Shown here: positions 18,955 to 64,000 of the stretch, piece after piece
How the letters are laid out: each line of letters starts with the position of its first letter
Position numbering within the stretch: position 1 is the stretch's first letter
NCBI GenBank assembly: GCA_017469845.1
Contig: JAFUFP010000011.1
Location: forward strand, 62,001-126,000
Length of the DNA: 64,000 nucleotides
Direction: 5' to 3'
DNA from: Bacteroidales bacterium
GTDB lineage: Bacteria > Bacteroidota > Bacteroidia > Bacteroidales > UBA932
Notes under the pieces: generated by a model
What the model was told of the DNA's origin: nothing
What the model saw: only the letters and a program-made list of their open reading frames with translations
Database searches by the model: none
Translations under genes and position numbers: made by a program

Positions 18955-20658
18955 TTAGTAGTGATACATGGTCACCTTCAGAGCGGAAATTTTTCCGGGA
19001 GTAAGGAAAGCGTTGCGCTCATCTCCGTTGAGGAGTCTTCCGGGAACGAACTTTCCGTCGACGAATTCACCTTCATAGATCTTGTCGAAGCCGCAGTAGC
19101 TTGACTTGACGCCTTCCTTCATCGTGAATGAAGCGTTGACTCCGTCACCCACCATGTAGAATTCATCCGGGGAAACCTGGATGAGAAGAGCGGCTCCTTC
19201 AAAACGGGGTTCCTGCTGCTGTGCCCTTCCGCCGGCTCCGGGTGCGGCTCCCGTAGCGGGTGCCATCATCGCTCCGATATCGAAGCTGCGGCGGCCATAG
19301 GAGAAATTGATGGTATAATCACCCATGTCGATGGTATCGGTGGCGTGACCGTTGTAAAGGTACACCGCCCTCATGGAATCCTTGCCGATGTTCTCTCTGA
19401 TGAGGGGTTCCATCTGAGCAAGCGCGTTGTATCCGTCGAAGAAATTCTTCTGCGCGGGGGAAAGGTTGGAAGAAGCTCCGGCGGCGAAGCTGTCGATTCC
19501 GAAAGGAGAGAACGCTATCGCGTCCCACTCACCTATGACATAGATTCCCCTGAGAGCGGAAACGCCGCTTTCGGGAATGAGGATGGGGTTACCGTTCCAT
19601 ACGAAAGCTTCACAAATCTCATCGATCTGCTGCATGTAGGAGTTCGGAGTGAGGATATCGAGTGAAGGTGCTCCTGCGGCATAAAGGTCGAAGAACTCGG
19701 GAATTGAGCAACCGTTTCCGAGGCTCCTTCCGCGTGAAGCGATTCCGAAGATGGAGGCGTTGGTGAAGGTGGGGAGAGCATATACTTTCTTACCCTCGCT
19801 TGAAAGGTAATCAAGATACTTGGCATATGAATATGCGGTGAAGAAATGCTCGGTCTGGTTGAGGATGGGGTTGTTTCCGTCATCTTCTGTGAGAGATTTT
19901 CCGAAAACCTGCTCCCAGTTGCCCTTTGTCTTCTTGCCGTTGTCTTCCCAAGCCTTCTGGACGTCAGCCTTGAGGGAGCCGTCGTGAGCTTTGAGGTAAG
20001 AAATCAGCTGCTCGGGGACATTGGCCTTCCAAGCTTTCTCGGCCAGAGATGAGAAATCCCTTACCGCGCCGCGGATACCGGGCTCGTTCTCGATCTGGAT
20101 CATGACCACAGTCTTGTCGAAGTCCACGTCCTTGACATGCGAAAGGAATGCGCAGTATGCCTTGGCGTCAGCCTTCATCATGTTTTCCGAAAGGACGCAG
20201 GGCATTTCCAGGTCATTGCCTTTCTCATCCTTGGCTCTGGGGAAACGCTTCACATCCTTCTTCACCCATGTGGGGGCATAGGTCATGAAGGGGTTCTTGA
20301 AAGCGCCGAACCAAATGAAGATCACCTTCATGTCATTTTCCCTGGCGGTCTTGATGACATAATCCACTTCCGTGAAATCGTACTTTCCTTCAGTGGGTTC
20401 CACAAGTTCCCATGAAGCGGTCGCGATCACGGAATTGAGGCCGATGGCTTTGAGGTTGGCGAAAGTCTTCTCCTTTTCCATGTAGGAAACGGATGACGCC
20501 GTAGAGTTGTGCAGCTCACCGCTGAGGAGGATGAGCGGTTTCCCGTCCTGCACGAGGCAGGTCTTCCCGTTCACTTTCTGAAGCGAAGGGATACTCTGGG
20601 CTGACAGAAGAGCAGTAGCGAGGGCCAGCGCGAAGAGCGAAGAGAAAATCTTTTTCAT
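18955..20658 (-). CDS. GH35/DUF5597 beta-galactosidase-like protein, copy 1
   Basis: A secreted glycosidase of about 567 residues. After the signal peptide (MKKIFSSLFALALATALLSA) comes a GH35-type (beta/alpha)8 domain with GELHNSTASS, the acid/base motif QIENEPG and the probable nucleophile in ILIPESG. A C-terminal DUF5597 domain contains YEGEFVDGKFVPGRLLNGDE. Family members include beta-galactosidases acting on plant glycans. A short Ala/Gly/Gln-rich insert (GAAPGAGGRAQQQ) lies in the C-terminal half. It is the last gene of the GH35-GH78-GH35 block, 30 bases after the GH78 gene. The start MKKIFSS is chosen over one three codons upstream. Confidence 0.85.
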   Translation of the reverse strand: MKKIFSSLFALALATALLSAQSIPSLQKVNGKTCLVQDGKPLILLSGELHNSTASSVSYMEKEKTFANLKAIGLNSVIATASWELVEPTEGKYDFTEVDYVIKTARENDMKVIFIWFGAFKNPFMTYAPTWVKKDVKRFPRAKDEKGNDLEMPCVLSENMMKADAKAYCAFLSHVKDVDFDKTVVMIQIENEPGIRGAVRDFSSLAEKAWKANVPEQLISYLKAHDGSLKADVQKAWEDNGKKTKGNWEQVFGKSLTEDDGNNPILNQTEHFFTAYSYAKYLDYLSSEGKKVYALPTFTNASIFGIASRGRSLGNGCSIPEFFDLYAAGAPSLDILTPNSYMQQIDEICEAFVWNGNPILIPESGVSALRGIYVIGEWDAIAFSPFGIDSFAAGASSNLSPAQKNFFDGYNALAQMEPLIRENIGKDSMRAVYLYNGHATDTIDMGDYTINFSYGRRSFDIGAMMAPATGAAPGAGGRAQQQEPRFEGAALLIQVSPDEFYMVGDGVNASFTMKEGVKSSYCGFDKIYEGEFVDGKFVPGRLLNGDERNAFLTPGKISALKVTMYHY

Positions 20659-20688
20659 ATTGATCATTTGGTTTGGTTGTTTTCTGCA

Positions 20689-22791
20689 CTATTGGAGATT
20701 GAAACTGTAGACTCCGCCCTTGGAGAGGGTCTTCCCGGGAACGGAGACGGTACATCCGTCAGGAATCGAGATGAGGCTCTCGCCCTTCGAATGCAGATCC
20801 AGCTCTATGTATCCTTCCTTCACAGGAATTCTTCCGGAAGCGCTTTCCATTCCGAAAAGGTCCGGTGAAACCGTATAGGAAGAAAGATTGTTTTCATCCT
20901 GGGAGAATCCGAACACTCCCCTGAGAGCGAAGAGTATCGGACCTACGCCGTTGGCGCCGTGACACAGGCTCAGACCATAGGCCCTGCCGTAGAATTCGAG
21001 CTTCTTCTCTACTGTCCCCAAGGGGGAGAAGTTCTCGGGGAAACGGCAGTAGCCTTCATCAAGCCATCCACCCCAGATGTCTTCCATCATCTTCTTGTAC
21101 TGGGTAAGTTTCCCGGCCTTCAGGTAAGAGAGGAACTCGAAGCCCTTCTCATAACTTATTTTGTCATAGTAATGGGGAATGGAAGGGATAAGGGTACCGA
21201 AAAGATAATCGTAGTGTTCCTCGGGATAGAGGCCGGCTATTACGGCCATATACTGTGCATGGTGCGATATCCTCCTGTCGAGAGTACCGTCTACGTAGTA
21301 TCCGTTGAGGAAAGCCCTGTCCTTCTCGCTCCAGAAATTCTTCTTCACGCCCTCGGCGACCTTCCCGGCGACTTCTCCGTAGTGTGCAGCCAAGCTCTTG
21401 AGGCCCTTGACGGAGGCGAGGTACTCCCCTATCCTGAAATTCAGATAAAGCAGCATCTGGGGATAAGCTGGAGTTCCGAACTGCTCGGGTCCCATATCCT
21501 TGCCCCATCCAGGCACAAAGCCGGAGTCTCCGCTCGCGTCATTGAGTCCCTCAGAAATCCTGTTGGAGAAGATGAGTCCGTCGGGATTCATTTCCTTTTC
21601 GTAGAGGGCGAGCTGCTGAGTGATCCTGTCCCAATACATATTGACTGTGGAGAGATCCCCCCAATGGAGATAATCCTCCTTGATTCCGATAAGGGCGTAA
21701 AGGGGATAGTCCACAATTCCCCAATCGCTCCTTGAAGGCGAAGGGGGCATCAGGGCAACGTTGATTCCGTTGCGTGAGACCTGACGGTCACCGAAAGCGA
21801 AGTTTCCTCCGAGGACGGAGACGATCGCGTCCATCGACCAAGGGAGATAGTCCCTCTTGATTCCGTCCAGATAGAAATTGTGCATCGATGTATGGAGGGT
21901 CTTCACTCCGATTTCGAAAAGACGGTTGAGGGAAGGATCGCTCGACTCGAAAGTCATCTTCCTTTCCACCGGCCACATGAGGGTATTGAACGTAAGAGCG
22001 GTCATTGACACTTCCCCCTCACTCCTTATATATAGATAACGGAGTGCCCTTACCGGAAGGGTGAACTCCCCTATCCCGTCAACTTTGACAGGGTCCAGGG
22101 CATACTGTTCGAACCATTTGAGGTCCTGGTTCATCGCCTCCTCGGGAGATTCCCCGACCGAGAAATGAAGTGTCCCCTTACCGTCAGCGATGAAAGAGAC
22201 ACTTCCCATCTCATCCTCACCGAAGTCGACAAGCGCTTTGCCGCCTTTTTTCATGGTTATGGTCTCCCTTACGATGGAAGCGTTCACAATGGGAGTGAAA
22301 GCGGCGATTCCGACGGGAACCACTTCCTCCATCATCGCTCCGGGATACTTCTCGGGAGATGAGTACATTGGATCGGACTCGATCAGGTTCCAGTTCTTTC
22401 CGTCAAGTGAAGAAGACCACCCGTCAACTGAAGGGACCATAACCGAAGGTACTCCCCCGTCGGTAACCACTTTGAAGACCATATCGCGTCCTACCCTGTA
22501 ACCGGTGATGTCTCCTGAAGTGGAAGGAAGGGTGGTGACGCCGCGAAGGGCGGACGCCTTCACCTTGAAATAGCTCTCCGTAACCGGAGGATTGAACTTC
22601 CCGGGATAATCGACATTGACGCACCTTTCCTTTGAGACTGTTCTCTGATAGGTCTGCATATGGGCTCCGAGTTGTCCCGGATACCATATCCATGAATCAG
22701 CCTCAGCCCCGTAGGAGAGCGTGAGCGCGGCCGCCACGAGAGCGGACTTCAGTATTGTCTTAAATGAATTTAAGATCATTCTTCCGTACAT
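20689..22791 (-). CDS. GH78 alpha-L-rhamnosidase-like protein
   Basis: A 700-residue exported protein with a signal peptide. N-terminal beta-sandwich regions (residues about 35-290) precede an (alpha/alpha)6 catalytic domain (about 300-620) typical of GH78, which removes terminal alpha-L-rhamnose. The catalytic region shows DGIKRDYLPWSMDA, and GWLDEGYCRFPE lies further on. It is complete for a short GH78. Its ATG overlaps the stop of the upstream GH35 gene (TAATG), implying translational coupling; an ATG four codons in is an alternative start. The GH35 neighbours suggest removal of a rhamnose- and galactose-containing plant glycan such as pectin side chains. Confidence 0.8.
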   Translation of the reverse strand: MYGRMILNSFKTILKSALVAAALTLSYGAEADSWIWYPGQLGAHMQTYQRTVSKERCVNVDYPGKFNPPVTESYFKVKASALRGVTTLPSTSGDITGYRVGRDMVFKVVTDGGVPSVMVPSVDGWSSSLDGKNWNLIESDPMYSSPEKYPGAMMEEVVPVGIAAFTPIVNASIVRETITMKKGGKALVDFGEDEMGSVSFIADGKGTLHFSVGESPEEAMNQDLKWFEQYALDPVKVDGIGEFTLPVRALRYLYIRSEGEVSMTALTFNTLMWPVERKMTFESSDPSLNRLFEIGVKTLHTSMHNFYLDGIKRDYLPWSMDAIVSVLGGNFAFGDRQVSRNGINVALMPPSPSRSDWGIVDYPLYALIGIKEDYLHWGDLSTVNMYWDRITQQLALYEKEMNPDGLIFSNRISEGLNDASGDSGFVPGWGKDMGPEQFGTPAYPQMLLYLNFRIGEYLASVKGLKSLAAHYGEVAGKVAEGVKKNFWSEKDRAFLNGYYVDGTLDRRISHHAQYMAVIAGLYPEEHYDYLFGTLIPSIPHYYDKISYEKGFEFLSYLKAGKLTQYKKMMEDIWGGWLDEGYCRFPENFSPLGTVEKKLEFYGRAYGLSLCHGANGVGPILFALRGVFGFSQDENNLSSYTVSPDLFGMESASGRIPVKEGYIELDLHSKGESLISIPDGCTVSVPGKTLSKGGVYSFNLQ

Positions 22792-24554
22792 TATTTGGGA
22801 TAAGTGAAAACTCTTGTCATGTAAACTGAGGGATCCTTGGGACGTGAAGTCACTATGTCCTGACGGGTTTCGCTGGAAGCGACATTGCGCTTGGGGAAAA
22901 CCTGTCCCTCGGGAAGTGTGACGCCCTCGGCGTATTCCATCCTGCCGCGGAGGTAAACTTCCTGTCCGTGGGAAGTCTGGTCTCCGTTCAGAAGCACTTC
23001 ACTGACCCACTCATCCCCTTCAAAATGTCCTTCCTGCACATAGTCATAACGGGACACCACCTTGGGATCATCCTTCTCTATTGAAATGAGGCAGCCGATG
23101 CCGGAAAGGAGGAATTCATCCTCGCCGGTCTTGATGACAAGTCCGAAGGCACGGGATTCCTCGGCGACATATTTCACGTTCACGGTATATCCGTCGAGCG
23201 ATATGGTTTCGCCCGTGGAACCCATTTCCCTGACGAACCCTTTCATTTTGCCGGTTCCCTGATACTTTGAAATTATCGGAAGAAGTTCTGAGAGCGTAGC
23301 GTATGTTCCGACATAATCCCTGTCGAGGAATGCGTCTTCAACGGCGAATGCCGAGAATCCTATCGCATCGTTGTTGGCGAAAGCGTAGTAAGCCGGAGAA
23401 GCGTTTCTCGAAGTCTCGGGAATGAAAAGAGGGTTGTCCTTCCTCGTGAAATCATCGCTTATGGCCTTGAACGCCGGCATGTAGATGTCCGGAGAGAAGA
23501 AGTCTATGCTGGGGGCCGCCGCATGATAAATGTCAATGGCATTGGCGACCGGAGCTCCGGACGGGAAATTGGGATTGCGTCTTCTTGCAGGTGCTCCCTG
23601 GGGTGCAGCTCCCTGCCCGTTTCCCTGTCCGGCAGGTGCGGCAGCCTGAGGAGGAGCGGGAGGCGTCGGCATAGACGAACTCATCGCCACAGTGTTCATG
23701 AACATGGGAATGTCGTACTGGGCCTTGCCGGCGGCAGCTATATCCTCAACATACGAGGCGAAATGCCATGCCATGAAGAACGCCTCCGTATCATCGCTTT
23801 CTCCGAAGACTTCTTTCCAGGAACCGGAAGTCCTGCTTCCGGAAGAAAGCCAAGCCTTGGCAATGGGAGAAGAAAGGCTTCCCGCATTCTTCTGGAGGAA
23901 AGATATGAGTTCTGAGGGCACTTTACCGGAAAAGGCTTTCTGCGCCTGCGCTCCATGATCGATCGATTGGGTCCACAGCCCGATTTCATTCTCGACCTGC
24001 ATCATCAGGACCATATTGTTCCTGTCCCTCTGGGCGATATGCTTCATAAGCGCTGTGAAAGCCTTCTTGTCGGCTTCTTTCGCATCCATACAGAAAGGAG
24101 AGATCGTGTCGGTGGACTCACCTTTGTCATTCTTGACCCTGAAGAACCTCTTCGGATCGGCTTTCATCCATGTGGGAATGTAACTTGACACCCCGTTCTT
24201 CCAGGTGCCGAACCATGCTATGGCGACAGGCATTTGGAGTTTCTCCGACAGGTCGATTATATGGTCCACCATCGTGAAGTCGTAGACCCCTTCCCTGGGT
24301 TCTAGCTGATCCCACTCAACCGTTACTATGACTGAATTCAGATGCATGGCACGGAGAGACTCCATCGTCTGGGAAAGATACCCCAGTGAAGATGATGTTG
24401 AATTGTGCAATTCACCGGAAAGCATGAGGAACGGTTCCCCACGCCAGAAAAGGCGACGCGTACCTTGATAGTCGCGCAGCTCAGCTTTCTGCGCATGAAG
24501 GCCCAAAGACAGGCACATAAGTGCAGAAATCAAAAGAATCCTGTTTTGTTTCAT
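22791..24554 (-). CDS. GH35/DUF5597 beta-galactosidase-like protein, copy 2
   Basis: A secreted protein of about 587 residues, paralog of the gene at 18955. It has the signal peptide MKQNRILLISALMCLSLGLHA, the barrel motif GELHNSTSSSLGY, the acid/base segment MQVENEIG and a nucleophile candidate in LFIPETSR. The C-terminal DUF5597 domain includes QEGHFEGDEWVSEVLLNGDQ. A low-complexity insert rich in Pro, Ala, Gly and Gln (residues about 295-330) sits inside the barrel, where the paralog has an ordinary loop. I chose the ATG at 24554 because a -7 box at 24594-24601 would put the transcript start after the upstream ATG. Confidence 0.85.
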   Translation of the reverse strand: MKQNRILLISALMCLSLGLHAQKAELRDYQGTRRLFWRGEPFLMLSGELHNSTSSSLGYLSQTMESLRAMHLNSVIVTVEWDQLEPREGVYDFTMVDHIIDLSEKLQMPVAIAWFGTWKNGVSSYIPTWMKADPKRFFRVKNDKGESTDTISPFCMDAKEADKKAFTALMKHIAQRDRNNMVLMMQVENEIGLWTQSIDHGAQAQKAFSGKVPSELISFLQKNAGSLSSPIAKAWLSSGSRTSGSWKEVFGESDDTEAFFMAWHFASYVEDIAAAGKAQYDIPMFMNTVAMSSSMPTPPAPPQAAAPAGQGNGQGAAPQGAPARRRNPNFPSGAPVANAIDIYHAAAPSIDFFSPDIYMPAFKAISDDFTRKDNPLFIPETSRNASPAYYAFANNDAIGFSAFAVEDAFLDRDYVGTYATLSELLPIISKYQGTGKMKGFVREMGSTGETISLDGYTVNVKYVAEESRAFGLVIKTGEDEFLLSGIGCLISIEKDDPKVVSRYDYVQEGHFEGDEWVSEVLLNGDQTSHGQEVYLRGRMEYAEGVTLPEGQVFPKRNVASSETRQDIVTSRPKDPSVYMTRVFTYPK

Positions 24555-24593
24555 TTTGTTTTGTGTTTCGGATCGGTTTTGGTTCGGTTTCGG

Positions 24594-24601
24594 CAAAAAT
24601 A
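24594..24601 (-). promoter_or_regulatory. -7 box of the GH35-GH78-GH35 operon
   Basis: Minus strand TATTTTTG. The nearest upstream TTG is 24 bases away, slightly farther than usual. It predicts a leader of about 30 bases before the ATG at 24554. Confidence 0.5.
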
Positions 24602-48664: not shown

Positions 48665-49873
48665 TTAACGTCTTATGGTAAGAGGAATCGCACCTTCGGG
48701 GAAAGCATCCCTTCCGGAGCACACGATGGCAAGGTAACCGCCCCCGCCGGCTCCCGGCATCTTCCATGCGAGCACCCCATCCATGGCGCTGTACTTGTCG
48801 ATATATTCCTGAACGGAAGAAAGGTATCCGCTGCCGGGCTGAGGTTTCATGCCGGAAGGATTGACCATCCCTGGGAACATCGCTACTTGGGCATCGAAAG
48901 AAGCTCTGTAAGCAGATGCGAAGCCTTCCAGATCCTTCGCCATAATAGCGTTCCAACAATCATCTGCAGCCTTTGCCAGAGCCTTCACCTTTTCGGAAGT
49001 TATGTCCTTCCCTTCGACAACGGAACATCCCTTCTGACGGGGAAACATCGGAATCATGCAAAGGTGATCCTCGAGCCAGGAAAGTACCCCCTCATCATAG
49101 CAGGATTCAATCTTTTCGGGCCAGAAGTGACCGTTGTACCAATGACGTACAAGTCCCGGCATGCAGATTCCTATCGCATCCTGCGCACCGGAAATGATGC
49201 CGTCGGTACGTTCAGGTTCATTCTCCACACAGAACACCAGACGGGCGAGCATCTCGGGATCCATTTGGGGAAGTTTCTGAGGCCAGATCTTGCGGATCAT
49301 GTTGCGGGTGCTTGTCGATAGACCGCACCTCTCCCTCACCTCGAAATCAGGCTCCAAAGAAATAGTTATCGCCCATCCCGGAGCATAGCATGAAACATAA
49401 GGCTGGTCGATCCAGGTCCCGGCAAGGTCCAATCTGGTCGGAATCCTGCATGTCAGGTTCTTGAGGTCGGTACTTGAACGGGCCTCGAGTCCTTCCTTGG
49501 GAAGACGCTTCAGGACCACGTACTCGATTCCTCGGCTGCGGCAGAATTCTTCCTTCTCGGGGGTTGAGCCGTCTTCATTGACGACGAAGATGTCGGGACG
49601 GACCCTGTCCACCGTCGGGACGAAGTCCATCACACCCGACCCCTCGTTTATGAAGGCGTCACGGACGTATCTGATGCTCTTCACCATAAAAAGACGTTCG
49701 TCCTGTCCGTACAGGGGTTTGTGGTGCTTGTAACCGAGAATCGTGGAATCGCTTCCGATTCCGACATACAGGTCACCGTATTGTGAGGCCTGTCGGAAAA
49801 ACTCCACATGCCCGCTGTGCAGAAGATCGTAGCATCCGCTGACGAACACTTTCTTGACTTGTCCTGAATCCAT
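48665..49873 (-). CDS. Fused HIGH-superfamily nucleotidyltransferase and GHMP sugar kinase
   Basis: A 402-residue two-domain protein. Residues about 6-138 form a cytidylyl/adenylyltransferase domain with the HxGH motif in SGCYDLLHSGHVEF and a GLEARSST loop. Residues about 142-402 form a GHMP kinase: motif 1 RIPTRLDLAGTWIDQP, motif 2 CGLSTSTRN and motif 3 KMPGAGGGGYLAIV. Motif 1 resembles the kinase half of FKP (L-fucokinase/GDP-fucose pyrophosphorylase) and HddA. The likely work is phosphorylation of a free sugar at C1, then transfer of a nucleotide to give an NDP-sugar. It follows wzz in the export operon (87-base gap with only a weak hairpin). The sugar and nucleotide are unknown. Confidence 0.8.
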   Translation of the reverse strand: MDSGQVKKVFVSGCYDLLHSGHVEFFRQASQYGDLYVGIGSDSTILGYKHHKPLYGQDERLFMVKSIRYVRDAFINEGSGVMDFVPTVDRVRPDIFVVNEDGSTPEKEEFCRSRGIEYVVLKRLPKEGLEARSSTDLKNLTCRIPTRLDLAGTWIDQPYVSCYAPGWAITISLEPDFEVRERCGLSTSTRNMIRKIWPQKLPQMDPEMLARLVFCVENEPERTDGIISGAQDAIGICMPGLVRHWYNGHFWPEKIESCYDEGVLSWLEDHLCMIPMFPRQKGCSVVEGKDITSEKVKALAKAADDCWNAIMAKDLEGFASAYRASFDAQVAMFPGMVNPSGMKPQPGSGYLSSVQEYIDKYSAMDGVLAWKMPGAGGGGYLAIVCSGRDAFPEGAIPLTIRR

Positions 49874-53723: not shown

Positions 53724-55058
53724 TTAGAGCCTTTCCCTGATCTTGGCGCTTGCCTCCTCGTAGCCGGGCTTATTGAGAAGAGCGAACATGTTCTTCTTGT
53801 AAGCCTCGACACCGGGCTGGTTGAAAGGATTGACTCCGAGAGTGTAGGCGCTCACGCCGCAAGCGAACTCGAAGAAGTAGAAGAGACCTCCGAGGTTGAA
53901 CTCGTTGATCCTCTCGATGCTGACCTCCATCTGGGGGACACCGCCGTCGATGTGGGCGAGCTTGGTTCCGAGCTGAGCCATTGCGCCGCAATGCTCAACG
54001 TGCTGGCCTGCGAGGTAATTGAGCTGGTCGAGGTTCTGCTCGTCGGATCCGATGAGCACGCTTCTGTTCGCGTTCTCGATGTTGATGACGGTCTCGAACA
54101 TGATCCTCTCACCTTCCTGGATGAACTGACCCATTGAGTGAAGGTCAGCGGTGTAGTTCACGGATGCGGGGAAGATACCCTTGAGGTCCTTTCCTTCCGA
54201 CTCACCGTAGAGCTGCTTCCACCACTCACCGAGATACTGGAACTTGGGATTGTAGGTAACCATGATCTCGATCTTCTTTCCGAGTTCGGAATAGAGGAGG
54301 TTACGCATGGCAGCGTACTGGATGGCGACATTCTCTTCGCTCTTCACGGCGAGAGCCTCTTCCATCTCCTTAGCACCTTCAAGCATGGCCCTGATGTCGA
54401 ATCCGGCCACGACGATAGGGAGAAGTCCTACAGGAGTGAGGACGGAGAAACGTCCGCCGACATTGTCGGGAACCACGAAAGTCTTGTATCCTTCCTGGGT
54501 GGAGAGGGTCTTGAGAGCACCCTTCTTGGCGTCAGTGATGGCGACTATCCTCTCGGAAGCGTCGGAATAGTTCTTCTCGATGAACTCCTTGACGATACGG
54601 AAAGCCACGGCGGGCTCGGTGGTGGTACCTGACTTGGAGATCACGATGCAGGCGGTGTTGCGCTCTGCTGCGAGATCCATAAGTTCAGCTACATACTCCT
54701 CTGAAAGGTTGTTTCCTGCGAAAACGACCTCGGGATTGCCGTTCTTTGATTTGAGCTGCTTCGCGAAGTTGTGTGAGAGAGCTTCGATAGCGCACCTTGC
54801 TCCGAGGTAAGATCCTCCGATACCGATTACGATGACGAGTTCAACACCCTTGGCTTTCCAGCAATCGCGGACAGCCTCGCATTCTTCAACGAGGGAAATG
54901 GGGGTCTGGGAAGGAAGGTGTTTCCAACCGAGAAAATCGTTTCCCGCTCCGCTTTCGCTGACAAGAACGTCAAAAGCGTCAAGAGCTTTGTTTACGTAAG
55001 CTTTGTAATCTGCATCTTTGACAAAGGAGCTGCAGCCTCCTACATTGATTTTAACCAT
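53724..55058 (-). CDS. pgi: Glucose-6-phosphate isomerase
   Basis: Interconverts glucose-6-phosphate and fructose-6-phosphate in glycolysis (444 residues, the short form found in Firmicutes and Bacteroidetes). Signature parts are IGIGGSYLGARCAIEAL near residue 77, VISKSGTTTEPA near 145 and WWKQLYGESEGKDLKGIFP near 290. GLFYFFEFACGVSAY and the final FNQPGVEAYKKNMF motif carry the catalytic region. A -7 box TAAATTTG lies at 55093-55100. It is upstream of the export operon in the same direction but is separated by a hairpin and a new promoter. Confidence 0.96.
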   Translation of the reverse strand: MVKINVGGCSSFVKDADYKAYVNKALDAFDVLVSESGAGNDFLGWKHLPSQTPISLVEECEAVRDCWKAKGVELVIVIGIGGSYLGARCAIEALSHNFAKQLKSKNGNPEVVFAGNNLSEEYVAELMDLAAERNTACIVISKSGTTTEPAVAFRIVKEFIEKNYSDASERIVAITDAKKGALKTLSTQEGYKTFVVPDNVGGRFSVLTPVGLLPIVVAGFDIRAMLEGAKEMEEALAVKSEENVAIQYAAMRNLLYSELGKKIEIMVTYNPKFQYLGEWWKQLYGESEGKDLKGIFPASVNYTADLHSMGQFIQEGERIMFETVINIENANRSVLIGSDEQNLDQLNYLAGQHVEHCGAMAQLGTKLAHIDGGVPQMEVSIERINEFNLGGLFYFFEFACGVSAYTLGVNPFNQPGVEAYKKNMFALLNKPGYEEASAKIRERL

Positions 55059-55202: not shown

Positions 55203-58200
55203 ATGACAAGACATTTCCCCTGGTATGGACTCTTTGCGCTGTCCATGACCGTTCTTTTGTCGTCGTTCTCCCCCGCCGCCACAGCCCAGGAAGCGGAACA
55301 TCCGGTCGCGATAGCCGCCCACCGCGGCTTCTGGAAGAATCCCCGCACCTCCAATTCCGAGAACTCGGTAGCGGCTCTCGCCGAAGCCCAACGGGAAAAA
55401 CTCTGGGGTTCCGAATTCGATGTCCACCTGACGGCGGATGACGTTGTCGTCGTCAATCACGACAACGACATCCAGGGAATCAGCATCCACGACAATCCCT
55501 ATTCGATGATAAAGGACCTCAGGCTCCCCAACGGAGAAAGGATTCCGACGCTCGAGGACTATCTGACCCAGGCGATGGCATCGCCTTACACCATGCTGGT
55601 CCTTGAAGTGAAGAACCACGGCAACCCCAGGAGAAGCGTCCAATTGTCGGCGAAGTGCCTTGAAGTGCTGACATCTTTCGGACTTCTTGACCCCGAGAGG
55701 GTGATGTTCATCTCCTTCAGCTACCCCGCATGCCGTTACCTGGCAGAGGTTCTGCCGCCGGAATTCAAAGTCCAGTACCTGGAGGGTGACAAGGACCCTG
55801 AAGAAGTCGCGGCCGACGGAATCAACGGAATCGACTACAACTATTCCGTCCTCACCGAACACCCCGAATGGGTAAAGAAAGCCCACGACAAGGGAATGGA
55901 CGTCAACGTGTGGACCGTCAACGATCCCGAAGTCATGAAACAGATGATCGACCTTGGGGTTGACTGCATAACGACGAATGAGCCTCTCGTCCTGAGGGAA
56001 ATCCTCGGAGAGAAGGAGGCCTTCCGTGAAATCGACCTCCCCAAACCCGAGGAATACGATCCTGTCGCCGACCCGGATGCGGTAGTCGTTTCCGGCAACG
56101 CCCGCTTCACGGTACTTACCCCGAGACTCATAAGAATGGAATGGTCGGAAGACGGTTCGGTCGAAGACAGGGCGACTCTAGGAGTAGTCAACCGCAATCT
56201 CCCCGTACCGGAGTTCTCCGTCAAGAAGACGTCCAAAGGCCTCACCATCACGACATCAGACCTGACCCTCACATACACCGGCGGGAAATTCGACGAAAAG
56301 TCGCTTTCGATAAAGATGCTTACTCCAGATCCCATCGGGAAACCCGCCCCGAAGAAGCCTCAATATACCGTCTGGCATCCCGGAATGTCTTCCGAAGGTA
56401 ACCTTCTCGGAACGACGAGGACACTTGACCGCTGCGACGGCGAAACCGTCATAGACCCCTTCGACGAGGGCGTTGTATCCCGTGACGGATGGGCTGTCCT
56501 CGACGAAAGCCTCCGTCATGTCTTCGTCCCCATCGACAGCGACTGGGGCAACTGGGTGGCCGAGAGGGACGGAGTCGACCGCCAGGACCTTTATTTCTTC
56601 GGATACGGCCACGACTACATGGAGGCCGTCAGCGACTTCACCCTCATTAGCGGACGCATCCCCATGCCGCCCAAGTACGCATTCGGATATTGGTGGTGCC
56701 GCTATTGGGAATATTCCGACTACGAGCTGGTGGATCTCGCACAGCATTTCAAGGACCTCGGAATCCCCGCCGACGTGATGATAATCGACATGGATTGGCA
56801 TGAGACCTGGAACCCCGAGGAGCACCCCGGCCTCAAGGACGAATCCGGTGAAGGTCTGGGTTGGACCGGCTACACCTGGAAGAAGGAACTCTTCCCCGAT
56901 CCGGAGAACCTCCTCACCACCCTTCACAACTACGGCCTCAAGACTTCCCTCAATCTCCATCCCGCCTCCGGAATACAGATCTATGAAGAGCCGTACGAAA
57001 GGTTCGTCAAGGATTACCTCTCGAGAACAAACGATTACGACGGACCGAAGGACTTCCTCAAAGCCGACGGGACTCCTACGTACGTTCCCTTCAGGATGGA
57101 CCAGGTGGAATGGGCCGACGCTTACTTCAACTCGGTGATGAGACCGTTCGAAAAGCAGGGAGTGGACTTCTGGTGGCTCGATTGGCAGCAGTTCAAGGAA
57201 AGCAAATACGTCCCGGGCCTCAGCAACACCTTCTGGCTGAACTACACCTTCTTCCAGGACAAGGTCAGAAAGAGCGCGGCCGAAGGGATACGCGCCGAAA
57301 GGCCGATGATCTACCACCGCTGGGGAGGAATCGGATCGCACCGCTACCAGGTCGGATTCTCGGGTGACACCTACGCCACATGGAAGGTACTCGGGTATCT
57401 CCCCTACTTCACTTCGACAGCCTCCAACGTAGGCTACGGCTACTGGGGACATGACATCGGAGGTCACATGCAGCCCCGCGGAGTCGACTTCACGGACCCC
57501 GAGCTCTACACAAGGTGGCTACAGAGCGGAGTTTTCACCCCGATCTTCAAGACCCACTCCACGAAGGACATGACTATGGAGAAGAGGTTCTGGGTTTTCC
57601 CCGACCATTTCGACGCCATGAGAAAGGCCATCCGTCTCCGCTACGACCTCTCCCCCTATATCTATATGCTCTCAAGGGAAGCCTACGACACCGGTATCTC
57701 GATGTCGAGGCCGCTTTACTACTACTATCCCGAGAGGGATGAGGCTTACTCGTGGAAGGAGGAGTTCTTCTTCGGGCAGGATATCCTGGCCACAACGGTA
57801 TGCGCACCGGTGGACAAGGCTACAGGCCTCGCTCCCAGAAGCATATGGTTCCCCGAAGGATACCGCTGGTTCGACACCGCCACCGGAACCCTTCACGAGG
57901 GTGACACCGTGGAAGACCTTGAATACACAATCGACGAGAACCCCTACTACGTGAGGGAAGGTTCGATCGTAGTTATGGCTTCCCCTGAGATAGGATCATT
58001 GCAGGAGACCTCATCCGAATACTGGATCCATATCTATCCCGGCGAAGGAGACAGCGAAACTCTCCTTTACGAAGATGACGGCAAGAGCCAGGCATATTTC
58101 ACAGAATACGCCACCACCCGTATCTCCAAATCTTCCACCGAGGACTCGATGTCCATCACCATCGGAGGCAGGGAGGGAACCTTTGAAGACGCTCCCACCG

Positions 58201-58694
58201 ACAGGACCCTCCGCATCGTCATCGAAAGCGTGCTTCCCCCTACCGAGGTAATCGTGAACGGAAAGCATATCCGCTACTCAAGGTTCCCTTCGGAGGAAAT
58301 GGGATCTTCCGTATGGACATATGACGGAGAGAACCTCAACGCGGTCATCTACCTTTCCGAGGAGAAAGTCTGGGACAGGACAGGTATAGACCTCTTCTGG
58401 GACGGTGAAGCGAGACCCGCCGAAATAGAAGGCAAGAGGGGTCTCATCAAAAGGATGATGGCCCTCACTCCGGAAGTGAAATACAATCTCGCCACGAAGG
58501 CGAGGGGCAAAGCCATCCCCAAGGTCTTCCTCGACATAGCCCAGTGCGGAAGCTATCTCACCGAAGACCCGGCCGGTGCTATAGACCATCTGCTTGAGAT
58601 GGATGTCGACGGCCTCAACACCAAATTCTCATCCTTCGAGGGGCTTGAAGAGGACTTCCTCCGGAAGGTCAAGGCACAGACTGACGTCAAATGA
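55203..58694 (+). CDS. Secreted glycerophosphodiester phosphodiesterase fused to GH31 glycosidase
   Basis: A 1163-residue exported enzyme (signal peptide ending near SPAATA). Residues about 33-275 are a GDPD domain with its catalytic set: AHRG (His40), Glu53 in ENS, Glu71 and Asp73 in GSEFDVH, and His86 in NHD. A LEVKN strand and VWTVNDPE follow. From about 290 there is a GH31 domain: YWWCRYWE, IIDMDWHE, the nucleophile in WWLDWQQ (Asp660) and the acid/base in GFSGDTYATW (Asp722). A beta-sandwich and an extra helical tail (about 1070-1163) end the protein. Both active sites look intact. It could cleave alpha-glycosylated glycerophosphate compounds; the fused domain order is the evidence, the substrate is inference. 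Confidence 0.88.
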   Translation: MTRHFPWYGLFALSMTVLLSSFSPAATAQEAEHPVAIAAHRGFWKNPRTSNSENSVAALAEAQREKLWGSEFDVHLTADDVVVVNHDNDIQGISIHDNPYSMIKDLRLPNGERIPTLEDYLTQAMASPYTMLVLEVKNHGNPRRSVQLSAKCLEVLTSFGLLDPERVMFISFSYPACRYLAEVLPPEFKVQYLEGDKDPEEVAADGINGIDYNYSVLTEHPEWVKKAHDKGMDVNVWTVNDPEVMKQMIDLGVDCITTNEPLVLREILGEKEAFREIDLPKPEEYDPVADPDAVVVSGNARFTVLTPRLIRMEWSEDGSVEDRATLGVVNRNLPVPEFSVKKTSKGLTITTSDLTLTYTGGKFDEKSLSIKMLTPDPIGKPAPKKPQYTVWHPGMSSEGNLLGTTRTLDRCDGETVIDPFDEGVVSRDGWAVLDESLRHVFVPIDSDWGNWVAERDGVDRQDLYFFGYGHDYMEAVSDFTLISGRIPMPPKYAFGYWWCRYWEYSDYELVDLAQHFKDLGIPADVMIIDMDWHETWNPEEHPGLKDESGEGLGWTGYTWKKELFPDPENLLTTLHNYGLKTSLNLHPASGIQIYEEPYERFVKDYLSRTNDYDGPKDFLKADGTPTYVPFRMDQVEWADAYFNSVMRPFEKQGVDFWWLDWQQFKESKYVPGLSNTFWLNYTFFQDKVRKSAAEGIRAERPMIYHRWGGIGSHRYQVGFSGDTYATWKVLGYLPYFTSTASNVGYGYWGHDIGGHMQPRGVDFTDPELYTRWLQSGVFTPIFKTHSTKDMTMEKRFWVFPDHFDAMRKAIRLRYDLSPYIYMLSREAYDTGISMSRPLYYYYPERDEAYSWKEEFFFGQDILATTVCAPVDKATGLAPRSIWFPEGYRWFDTATGTLHEGDTVEDLEYTIDENPYYVREGSIVVMASPEIGSLQETSSEYWIHIYPGEGDSETLLYEDDGKSQAYFTEYATTRISKSSTEDSMSITIGGREGTFEDAPTDRTLRIVIESVLPPTEVIVNGKHIRYSRFPSEEMGSSVWTYDGENLNAVIYLSEEKVWDRTGIDLFWDGEARPAEIEGKRGLIKRMMALTPEVKYNLATKARGKAIPKVFLDIAQCGSYLTEDPAGAIDHLLEMDVDGLNTKFSSFEGLEEDFLRKVKAQTDVK

Positions 58695-63162: not shown

Positions 63163-64000
63163 TCACTTGATGGGAATGAAGACCACCGCCTGACCTCCTC
63201 CCGGCGCCATGACGATGTCAAGGGAATCCGTGCTTTCCACTACCCTCGTCGAAATCGTATACGAATACGGATTGGTCTTCCAGTCCGCATCCGGTCCGTC
63301 CGCATAGATCGTGGCAAGGAATTTCTTCCCCCGGGGAAGGAATGAAAGCGGGCAACCGACGCTCTTGGCGCTGTCAGCTGTAACCGCACCGAGATAATAT
63401 CTTTCCCCTGCCCTTCTCGCGACAACGTAATACTCTCCGATTTCCCCGTCAAGGGCTTCCGACCAGTCGATATCGGCGTCATATTCCCTGAAGAACTGGA
63501 ATGCGGGATGGCCCTCATAGTTCCGGATGAGGTCAGAAGCCATCTGCATCGGGGAATAAAGTACCACCCAATCGGCAATCTGCTTGGCCAGGGTCGTATT
63601 GACTCGGCATTCGGTAGCTATGGGGCCGTTCCATGCCTGAAGGTCGGGATTGCCCACTATATTGCGGTAAGTGATGTCGAAGATTCCGGGGGTATAGTCC
63701 ATCGGACCGCCAAGAAGTCTCGTGAAAGGAAGGATCGTCTGATGCTCGGGAGGATTACCCGCACTCCAGGCGTTCCATTCCATGCCTCTGGCACCCTCAC
63801 GGCACATCATGTTGGGGTAGGTCCTTCTCTCTCCGGTTGCCTTTATCGGCTCATGGACATCCAGCATGATTCCGTACTCGGCGGCCTTGCGGAGCACCCT
63901 TGCATAGTGTCTCACCATATACTGGCCGTGATGGTTGTATCCTCCGGTTATTCCTCCCGCATATCCAGTCTTTATGGCGTTTATCCCGTGGGACTTCGCC
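63163..64000 (-). CDS. GH97 alpha-glucosidase-like protein, N-terminal part outside window
   Basis: The C-terminal 279 codons of a GH97 enzyme, which degrades alpha-glucans in the periplasm (SusB-like). The visible part begins in the barrel with GINAIKTGYAGG, where inverting GH97 members have Gly in place of the nucleophile Asp of retaining members. YNHHGQYMVRHYARVL, the Glu-bearing DVHEPIKATGERRTYPN and REGARGMEWNAWS follow. The C-terminal beta-sandwich (GEIGEYYVVARRAGERYYLG) is complete. The frame is open at 64000. Inverting alpha-glucosidase activity is likely from these residues. Confidence 0.9.
   Translation of the reverse strand, partial: AKSHGINAIKTGYAGGITGGYNHHGQYMVRHYARVLRKAAEYGIMLDVHEPIKATGERRTYPNMMCREGARGMEWNAWSAGNPPEHQTILPFTRLLGGPMDYTPGIFDITYRNIVGNPDLQAWNGPIATECRVNTTLAKQIADWVVLYSPMQMASDLIRNYEGHPAFQFFREYDADIDWSEALDGEIGEYYVVARRAGERYYLGAVTADSAKSVGCPLSFLPRGKKFLATIYADGPDADWKTNPYSYTISTRVVESTDSLDIVMAPGGGQAVVFIPIK

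Follow-up and report, generated by a model that had tools for sequence, protein, structure and literature searches.

A GDPD-GH31 fusion protein of a gut or rumen Bacteroidales bacterium, with a candidate role on alpha-glucosylated glycerophosphate glycans

We describe a gene on the forward strand (55203-58694) of a 64,000-nucleotide stretch of Bacteroidales DNA, hereafter the window, which encodes a GDPD domain followed by a GH31_u1-type glycosidase in a single protein of 1163 residues. Both halves of this protein from a gut or rumen bacterium belong to known families, and the pairing of GDPD with GH31_u1 in related genomes exceeds chance. The main reading, to which we assign a probability of about 0.45, is that the product would be an exported protein with two enzymes working in sequence on a glycerophosphate glycan that bears alpha-linked glucose, pieces of teichoic or lipoteichoic acid being the likeliest case. 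A literature search yielded no paper about a GDPD-GH31 fusion, as judged by title and abstract.

Domain structure and predicted location of the fusion protein

The 1163-residue open reading frame contains no internal stop codons and both Pfam domains were matched in its translation, in agreement with the original prediction that one polypeptide joins the two enzymes. The divergent neighbour on the reverse strand (53724-55058) reads as pgi, the gene for glucose-6-phosphate isomerase. From the N-terminus, and all on the forward strand, the protein consists of a putative Sec signal peptide without a lipobox at residues 1-29 (MTRHFPWYGLFALSMTVLLSSFSPAATAQ; 55203-55289), the GDPD domain at residues 40-261 (55320-55985), an inter-domain linker at residues 273-288 (56019-56066) placed from alignments and from low pLDDT at 276-283, and the GH31 half. 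The latter comprises an N-terminal beta region at residues 290-486 (56070-56660; from the AlphaFold2 model and the alignment to 7wja), the catalytic TIM barrel at residues 487-822 (56661-57668), a third, C-proximal domain at residues 831-923 (57693-57971; PF21365), a DUF5110 domain at residues 942-1007 (58026-58223; PF17137) and a C-terminal helical domain at residues 1072-1160 (58416-58682).

The AlphaFold2 model of the whole protein had a mean pLDDT of 88.4 and a pTM of 0.76, with values of pLDDT below 50 at residues 1-5 and 7-31. The Sec-like signal peptide, read from the sequence, agrees with an earlier description of the protein as secreted, but "exported" is the better word, since the missing lipobox together with the helical C-terminus of GH31_u1 type makes the periplasm the probable place of the protein.

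The GDPD half

The GDPD domain was matched by PF03009 at residues 40-261 with an E-value of 2.5e-27 and a score of 97 bits against a gathering cut-off of 23.6. Among sequences in the PDB it was closest to 3no3 (E = 1.8e-58), the Parabacteroides distasonis GDPD BDI_0402, which is 43% identical to it and resembles it over the entire domain but, unlike the fusion, is a single-domain protein. The structural alignment of 3no3 to model residues 31-271 gave a Z score of 37.4 and an rmsd of 1.1 over 236 residues; the ranges of this and the other VIA alignment are defined by first and last residues only. A related N-terminal GDPD (39% identity, E = 1e-46) is found on a multidomain beta-1,3(4)-glucanase (7ww4/7wwc), so that there is at least one solved example of a GDPD joined to another glycan-cleaving enzyme, although its partner is annotated as a beta-glucanase and not as GH31. 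The GDPD half missed the cut-off of the UgpQ-type equivalog PRK09454 in NCBIfam (46.4 versus 264 bits), and close kinship to the Bacillus subtilis teichoicase GlpQ was not found, the match to 5t91 having an E-value of 0.016.

We aligned 17 GDPD domains, namely that of the window, those of four other fusions and 12 unfused ones, from which the GDPD residues of the fusion at locus L032 were also taken. His40, Glu71, Asp73 and His86 were invariant in all 17. Glu135, in an LEVK motif, is kept in the fusions and is likely to be the third metal ligand. In many relatives, among them three fused homologues, Q or K stands in place of Glu53, which is for that reason not essential. We take the roles of His40, His86, Glu71, Asp73 and Glu135 as catalytic histidines and metal ligands from knowledge of the family.

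The GH31 half

The GH31 barrel was matched by Pfam at residues 487-822 (E = 8.8e-61), with the third domain and DUF5110 behind it. To our knowledge, LlGH31_u1 is the sole characterised bacterial member of GH31_u1. This enzyme of Lactococcus lactis (7wj9/7wja; PMC9061262) was the closest relative of the GH31 half, with an E-value of 3.3e-130 and about 34% identity, versus 1e-42 for the next GH31 group (6jr8), which places the GH31 half with GH31_u1 by sequence. The likeness extends to the catalytic residues, to the subsite residues that were checked and to the overall fold, probably with its C-terminal helical domain: 7wja aligned to model residues 291-1163 with a Z score of 40.7 over 706 residues. 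Unlike the fusion, LlGH31_u1 is described with neither a signal peptide nor another annotated domain.

Asp660 and Asp722 were invariant in 24 of 24 aligned GH31 domains and correspond to Asp341 and Asp394 of LlGH31_u1, an alignment by which they would be the nucleophile and the acid/base, respectively. With these residues and those of the GDPD half kept in the aligned domains, the view that both active sites are intact is supported. An earlier list of active-site residues was right on His40, Glu71, Asp73, His86, Asp660 and Asp722, all present and conserved, whereas the Glu53 that it included, which is likewise present at its stated number, is variable and Glu135 had been omitted. Further counterparts in the alignment are His586, Gln662, Phe719 and His755 for His280, Gln343, Phe391 and His427 of LlGH31_u1, residues that the LlGH31_u1 paper ties to sugar recognition (PMC9061262). 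Model helices lie within residues 1072-1160 and the 7wja alignment reaches residue 1163; in LlGH31_u1 the C-terminal four-helix domain serves hexamer formation, according to the same paper, and Tyr99 of the +1 subsite is contributed by a neighbouring subunit. Tyr99 has no clear counterpart here, Tyr388 being one position off in the alignment and absent from the other aligned fusions.

The same source treats GH31_u1 as an alpha-glucosidase group and LlGH31_u1 as a strict alpha-1,3-glucosidase with a strong preference for nigerose, kojibiose being used at 13% of its kcat/Km; alpha-glucosyl-glycerol receives no mention in the portion of its substrate account used here (PMC9061262).

Occurrence of the fusion and conservation of the pgi neighbourhood

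Searches for other proteins with GDPD followed by GH31 recovered the full-length fusion in five further species (L003/G013, L032, L033, L034 and L117/G103), which makes six with the window. In the window, L003, L033, L034 and L117, pgi adjoins the fused gene; the pgi match of L032 overlaps the beginning of the long frame taken for that locus. The two genes are split in L038, where the GDPD gene ends 2 bp ahead of the GH31 start codon and the GH31 protein begins, as read from its sequence, with a signal peptide of its own. This signal peptide is missing from the fusions, in which a linker ties the end of GDPD to the start of the mature GH31 protein; the linker at residues 273-288 occupies the place of the signal peptide in unfused GH31. 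The split genes in L038 are what might be cited in favour of a sequencing or assembly error that joined two genes in the window, but the full-length fusion in five independent species, with the GH31 signal peptide gone at the junction, led us to reject this explanation as exceedingly improbable.

In L044 and L052 the gene order is GH31, pgi, GDPD. With pgi near fused and split genes of related species, the neighbourhood has been kept, and what varies is whether GDPD and GH31 are joined. The split relatives suggest that separate genes near pgi came first and were fused later; an older fusion that was later split by fission would fit too. Within a single clade of the GH31 tree (support 0.999), the fused forms took up three separate positions, and the GDPD tree was weakly supported, so that either repeated fusion or an old fusion with fission may account for the pattern. 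No GDPD-GH31 fusion was found outside the genus in 396 genomes sampled at class level and 394 at phylum level, and among the rank-sampled genomes the GDPD-GH31_u1 fusion occurred in this genus only; L032, L033 and L034 are named just Bacteroidales. Two long GDPD frames of the same genus (G073 and G093) were considered as candidates and rejected, their GDPD domains lying at the end of long proteins.

Pairing of GDPD with GH31_u1 in related genomes

GDPD genes of three subfamilies were located within 5 kb of 17 of the 111 distinct GH31_u1 genes, including the six fusions. Genomes of the genus have on average 3.46 GDPD among the matches listed, a density at which about 1.05 would be expected in the 684 kb of flanking sequence examined; we observed nine to ten unfused GDPD genes there. 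In a sample of 81 genomes of the genus, at least 8 of about 44 GH31_u1 genes, both counted by eye among the GDPD matches listed, had a GDPD gene within 3 kb, as compared to an expectation of 0.47. The first list of loci was picked by similarity to the fusion itself, and the chance estimate takes related genomes as independent, so that its probabilities overstate the pairing. The occurrence of three GDPD subfamilies in differing arrangements is a stronger argument than the chance probabilities.

Other fusions involve GDPD in the same genus. One 925-residue protein (L142:5151-7925, reverse strand) consists of GH97 followed by GDPD, the GH97 part being closest to the retaining alpha-galactosidase 3a24 (E = 2.6e-120) and the GDPD part to 3ch0. 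In another (L143:3228-5939, forward strand), GH127, the beta-L-arabinofuranosidase family, is followed by GDPD in a frame that exits the contig end. Calcineurin-type phosphoesterases (MetallophosN, Metallophos and MetallophosC) are fused to GDPD on the forward strand at L035:6570-8813, L047:10724-12973 and L145:5765-8056, with GH31_u1 adjoining in all three; L145 belongs to the genus, L035 and L047 to Bacteroidales. The stretch in L047 contains GH31_u1, the calcineurin-GDPD protein, SusC and SusD, and the gene row in L145 is NAGLU (alpha-N-acetylglucosaminidase), GH31_u1 and calcineurin-GDPD. Behind the GH31_u1 gene of L011 lie a GDPD-DUF4996 gene and the beginning of an MFS transporter, which we read as GlpT-like. 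Three paired subfamilies, six fused species and further GDPD-glycosidase fusions in the genus uphold the earlier proposal that the two activities belong together.

Several additional genes were noted in these loci. Two proteins of about 1150 residues, at L139:4093-7554 (forward strand) and L140:1829-5218 (reverse strand), carry GDPD close to their end, and their first 860 residues have little or no Pfam match. Phosphatase-like genes are located at most 5 kb from GH31_u1 in L010, L072, L079, L080, L086, L108 and L131, as counted from phmmer homologues, and by eye resemble histidine acid phosphatase, alkaline phosphatase or 5'-nucleotidase.

Other genes in the window

On the reverse strand at 18955-24596, two GH35-like genes with DUF5597 flank a gene with a weak match of alpha-L-rhamnosidase type. 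The reverse-strand gene at 48665-49873 has an N-terminal cytidylyltransferase-like domain (PF01467); its C-terminal part gave no Pfam match at an E-value of 1e-4 and resembles a GHMP kinase by eye. A 251-residue frame at 63163-63918, also on the reverse strand, matches GH97 over its second half (137-273 of the 275 profile positions) and GH97_C. As the match covers only that half of the profile, the frame is probably the final part of a longer gene, which leaves the window.

Discussion

We propose that the GH31_u1 half would take off alpha-linked glucose by a retaining mechanism (Asp660, Asp722) and favour alpha-1,3 or alpha-1,2-like linkages, while the GDPD half would be a metal-dependent phosphodiesterase (His40/His86, Glu71, Asp73, Glu135) that cuts glycerophosphodiesters. 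Both halves would act in succession on one type of substrate, a glycerophosphate glycan with alpha-linked glucose, of which teichoic or lipoteichoic acid fragments of Gram-positive neighbours seem the likeliest. The glucosidase would strip the sugar that blocks the phosphodiesterase, and the phosphodiesterase would then free glycerol phosphate, with imported fragments being processed in the periplasm.

The choice of substrate draws on GlpQ of B. subtilis (5t91; PMC7086022), a member of the GDPD superfamily that has the activity proposed here for the fusion. In that study, GlpQ frees glycerol phosphate from wall teichoic acid that is unmodified, acting at the free end of the polymer; release from alpha-glucosylated wall teichoic acid is about 22 times lower than from the unglucosylated polymer, and the authors' view is that the enzyme halts at glycosylated units (PMC7086022). 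GlpQ differs from the proposed action of the fusion in being blocked by alpha-glucosylation, and it is described there without a glycosidase partner in its chain. Since glucosylation blocks a GDPD teichoicase and an alpha-glucosidase could, by analogy, lift the block, teichoic acids are a good candidate on the argument of fit. The SusC/SusD genes (L047) or the alpha-N-acetylglucosaminidase (L145) beside the pair in relatives may be taken to point the same way. The distant likeness to GlpQ, the preference of LlGH31_u1 for nigerose, and the fusion of GDPD also to the ill-fitting GH127 and beta-1,3(4)-glucanase (7ww4), are against this substrate or neutral. The same holds for the setting of the fusion gene: in the window it adjoins pgi and what reads as purC, no transport, sensing or sugar-uptake genes lie beside it, the SusC/SusD pair is absent there, the window contains no PUL, and GlpT (TIGR00712) had no match in this genome.

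Phosphoglycerol occurs on glucans and lipoglycans. The further partners of GDPD, a beta-1,3(4)-glucanase (7ww4/7wwc), an alpha-galactosidase-like GH97 and GH127, suggest phosphoglycerol-decorated glycans in general, and the substrate could then be another glycan with alpha-glucose and glycerophosphate, such as phosphoglycerol-substituted glucans, capsules, lipoglycans or glycerophosphoglycolipids, rather than teichoic acid. We regard this as rather unlikely, none of the loci examined identifying such a glycan. The same variety of glycosidase partners, and the three GDPD subfamilies that pair with GH31_u1 at differing positions, argue against two independent activities fused merely as neighbours beside pgi, with GDPD recycling phospholipid head groups and GH31 trimming alpha-gluco-oligosaccharides. 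In its favour, the pgi neighbourhood is conserved, GDPD is common in the genus (at least 70 of 81 genomes), and the majority of the GH31_u1 genes lack a GDPD in their vicinity, with GH13-type genes adjoining 9 of the 111; on balance, we consider it unlikely. It is conceivable for any appended domain that it merely targets its partner, but the retention of His40, Glu71, Asp73, His86 and Glu135 in the fusions makes a non-catalytic or binding role of the GDPD half very improbable.

Returning to the sequential action of both enzymes on one glycan, a bolder and more doubtful version is that the protein is a self-contained teichoic-acid degrader, which strips the protecting alpha-glucose and digests the glycerol-phosphate chain, and belongs to a larger group of proteins in which GDPD is fused to a glycosidase. 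The use of Gram-positive glycerol-phosphate polymers by gut and rumen Bacteroidota seems to be little studied, as a literature search on GDPD, teichoic acid and Bacteroides gave no paper whose title and abstract dealt with an enzyme of this kind. A fusion of two complementary activities provides a direct, testable candidate, and the GH97, GH127 and calcineurin-type fusions with GDPD provide a family for comparison. If the proposal is true, gut and rumen Bacteroidales would feed on glycosylated teichoic acids with GDPD-glycosidase fusions of this kind.
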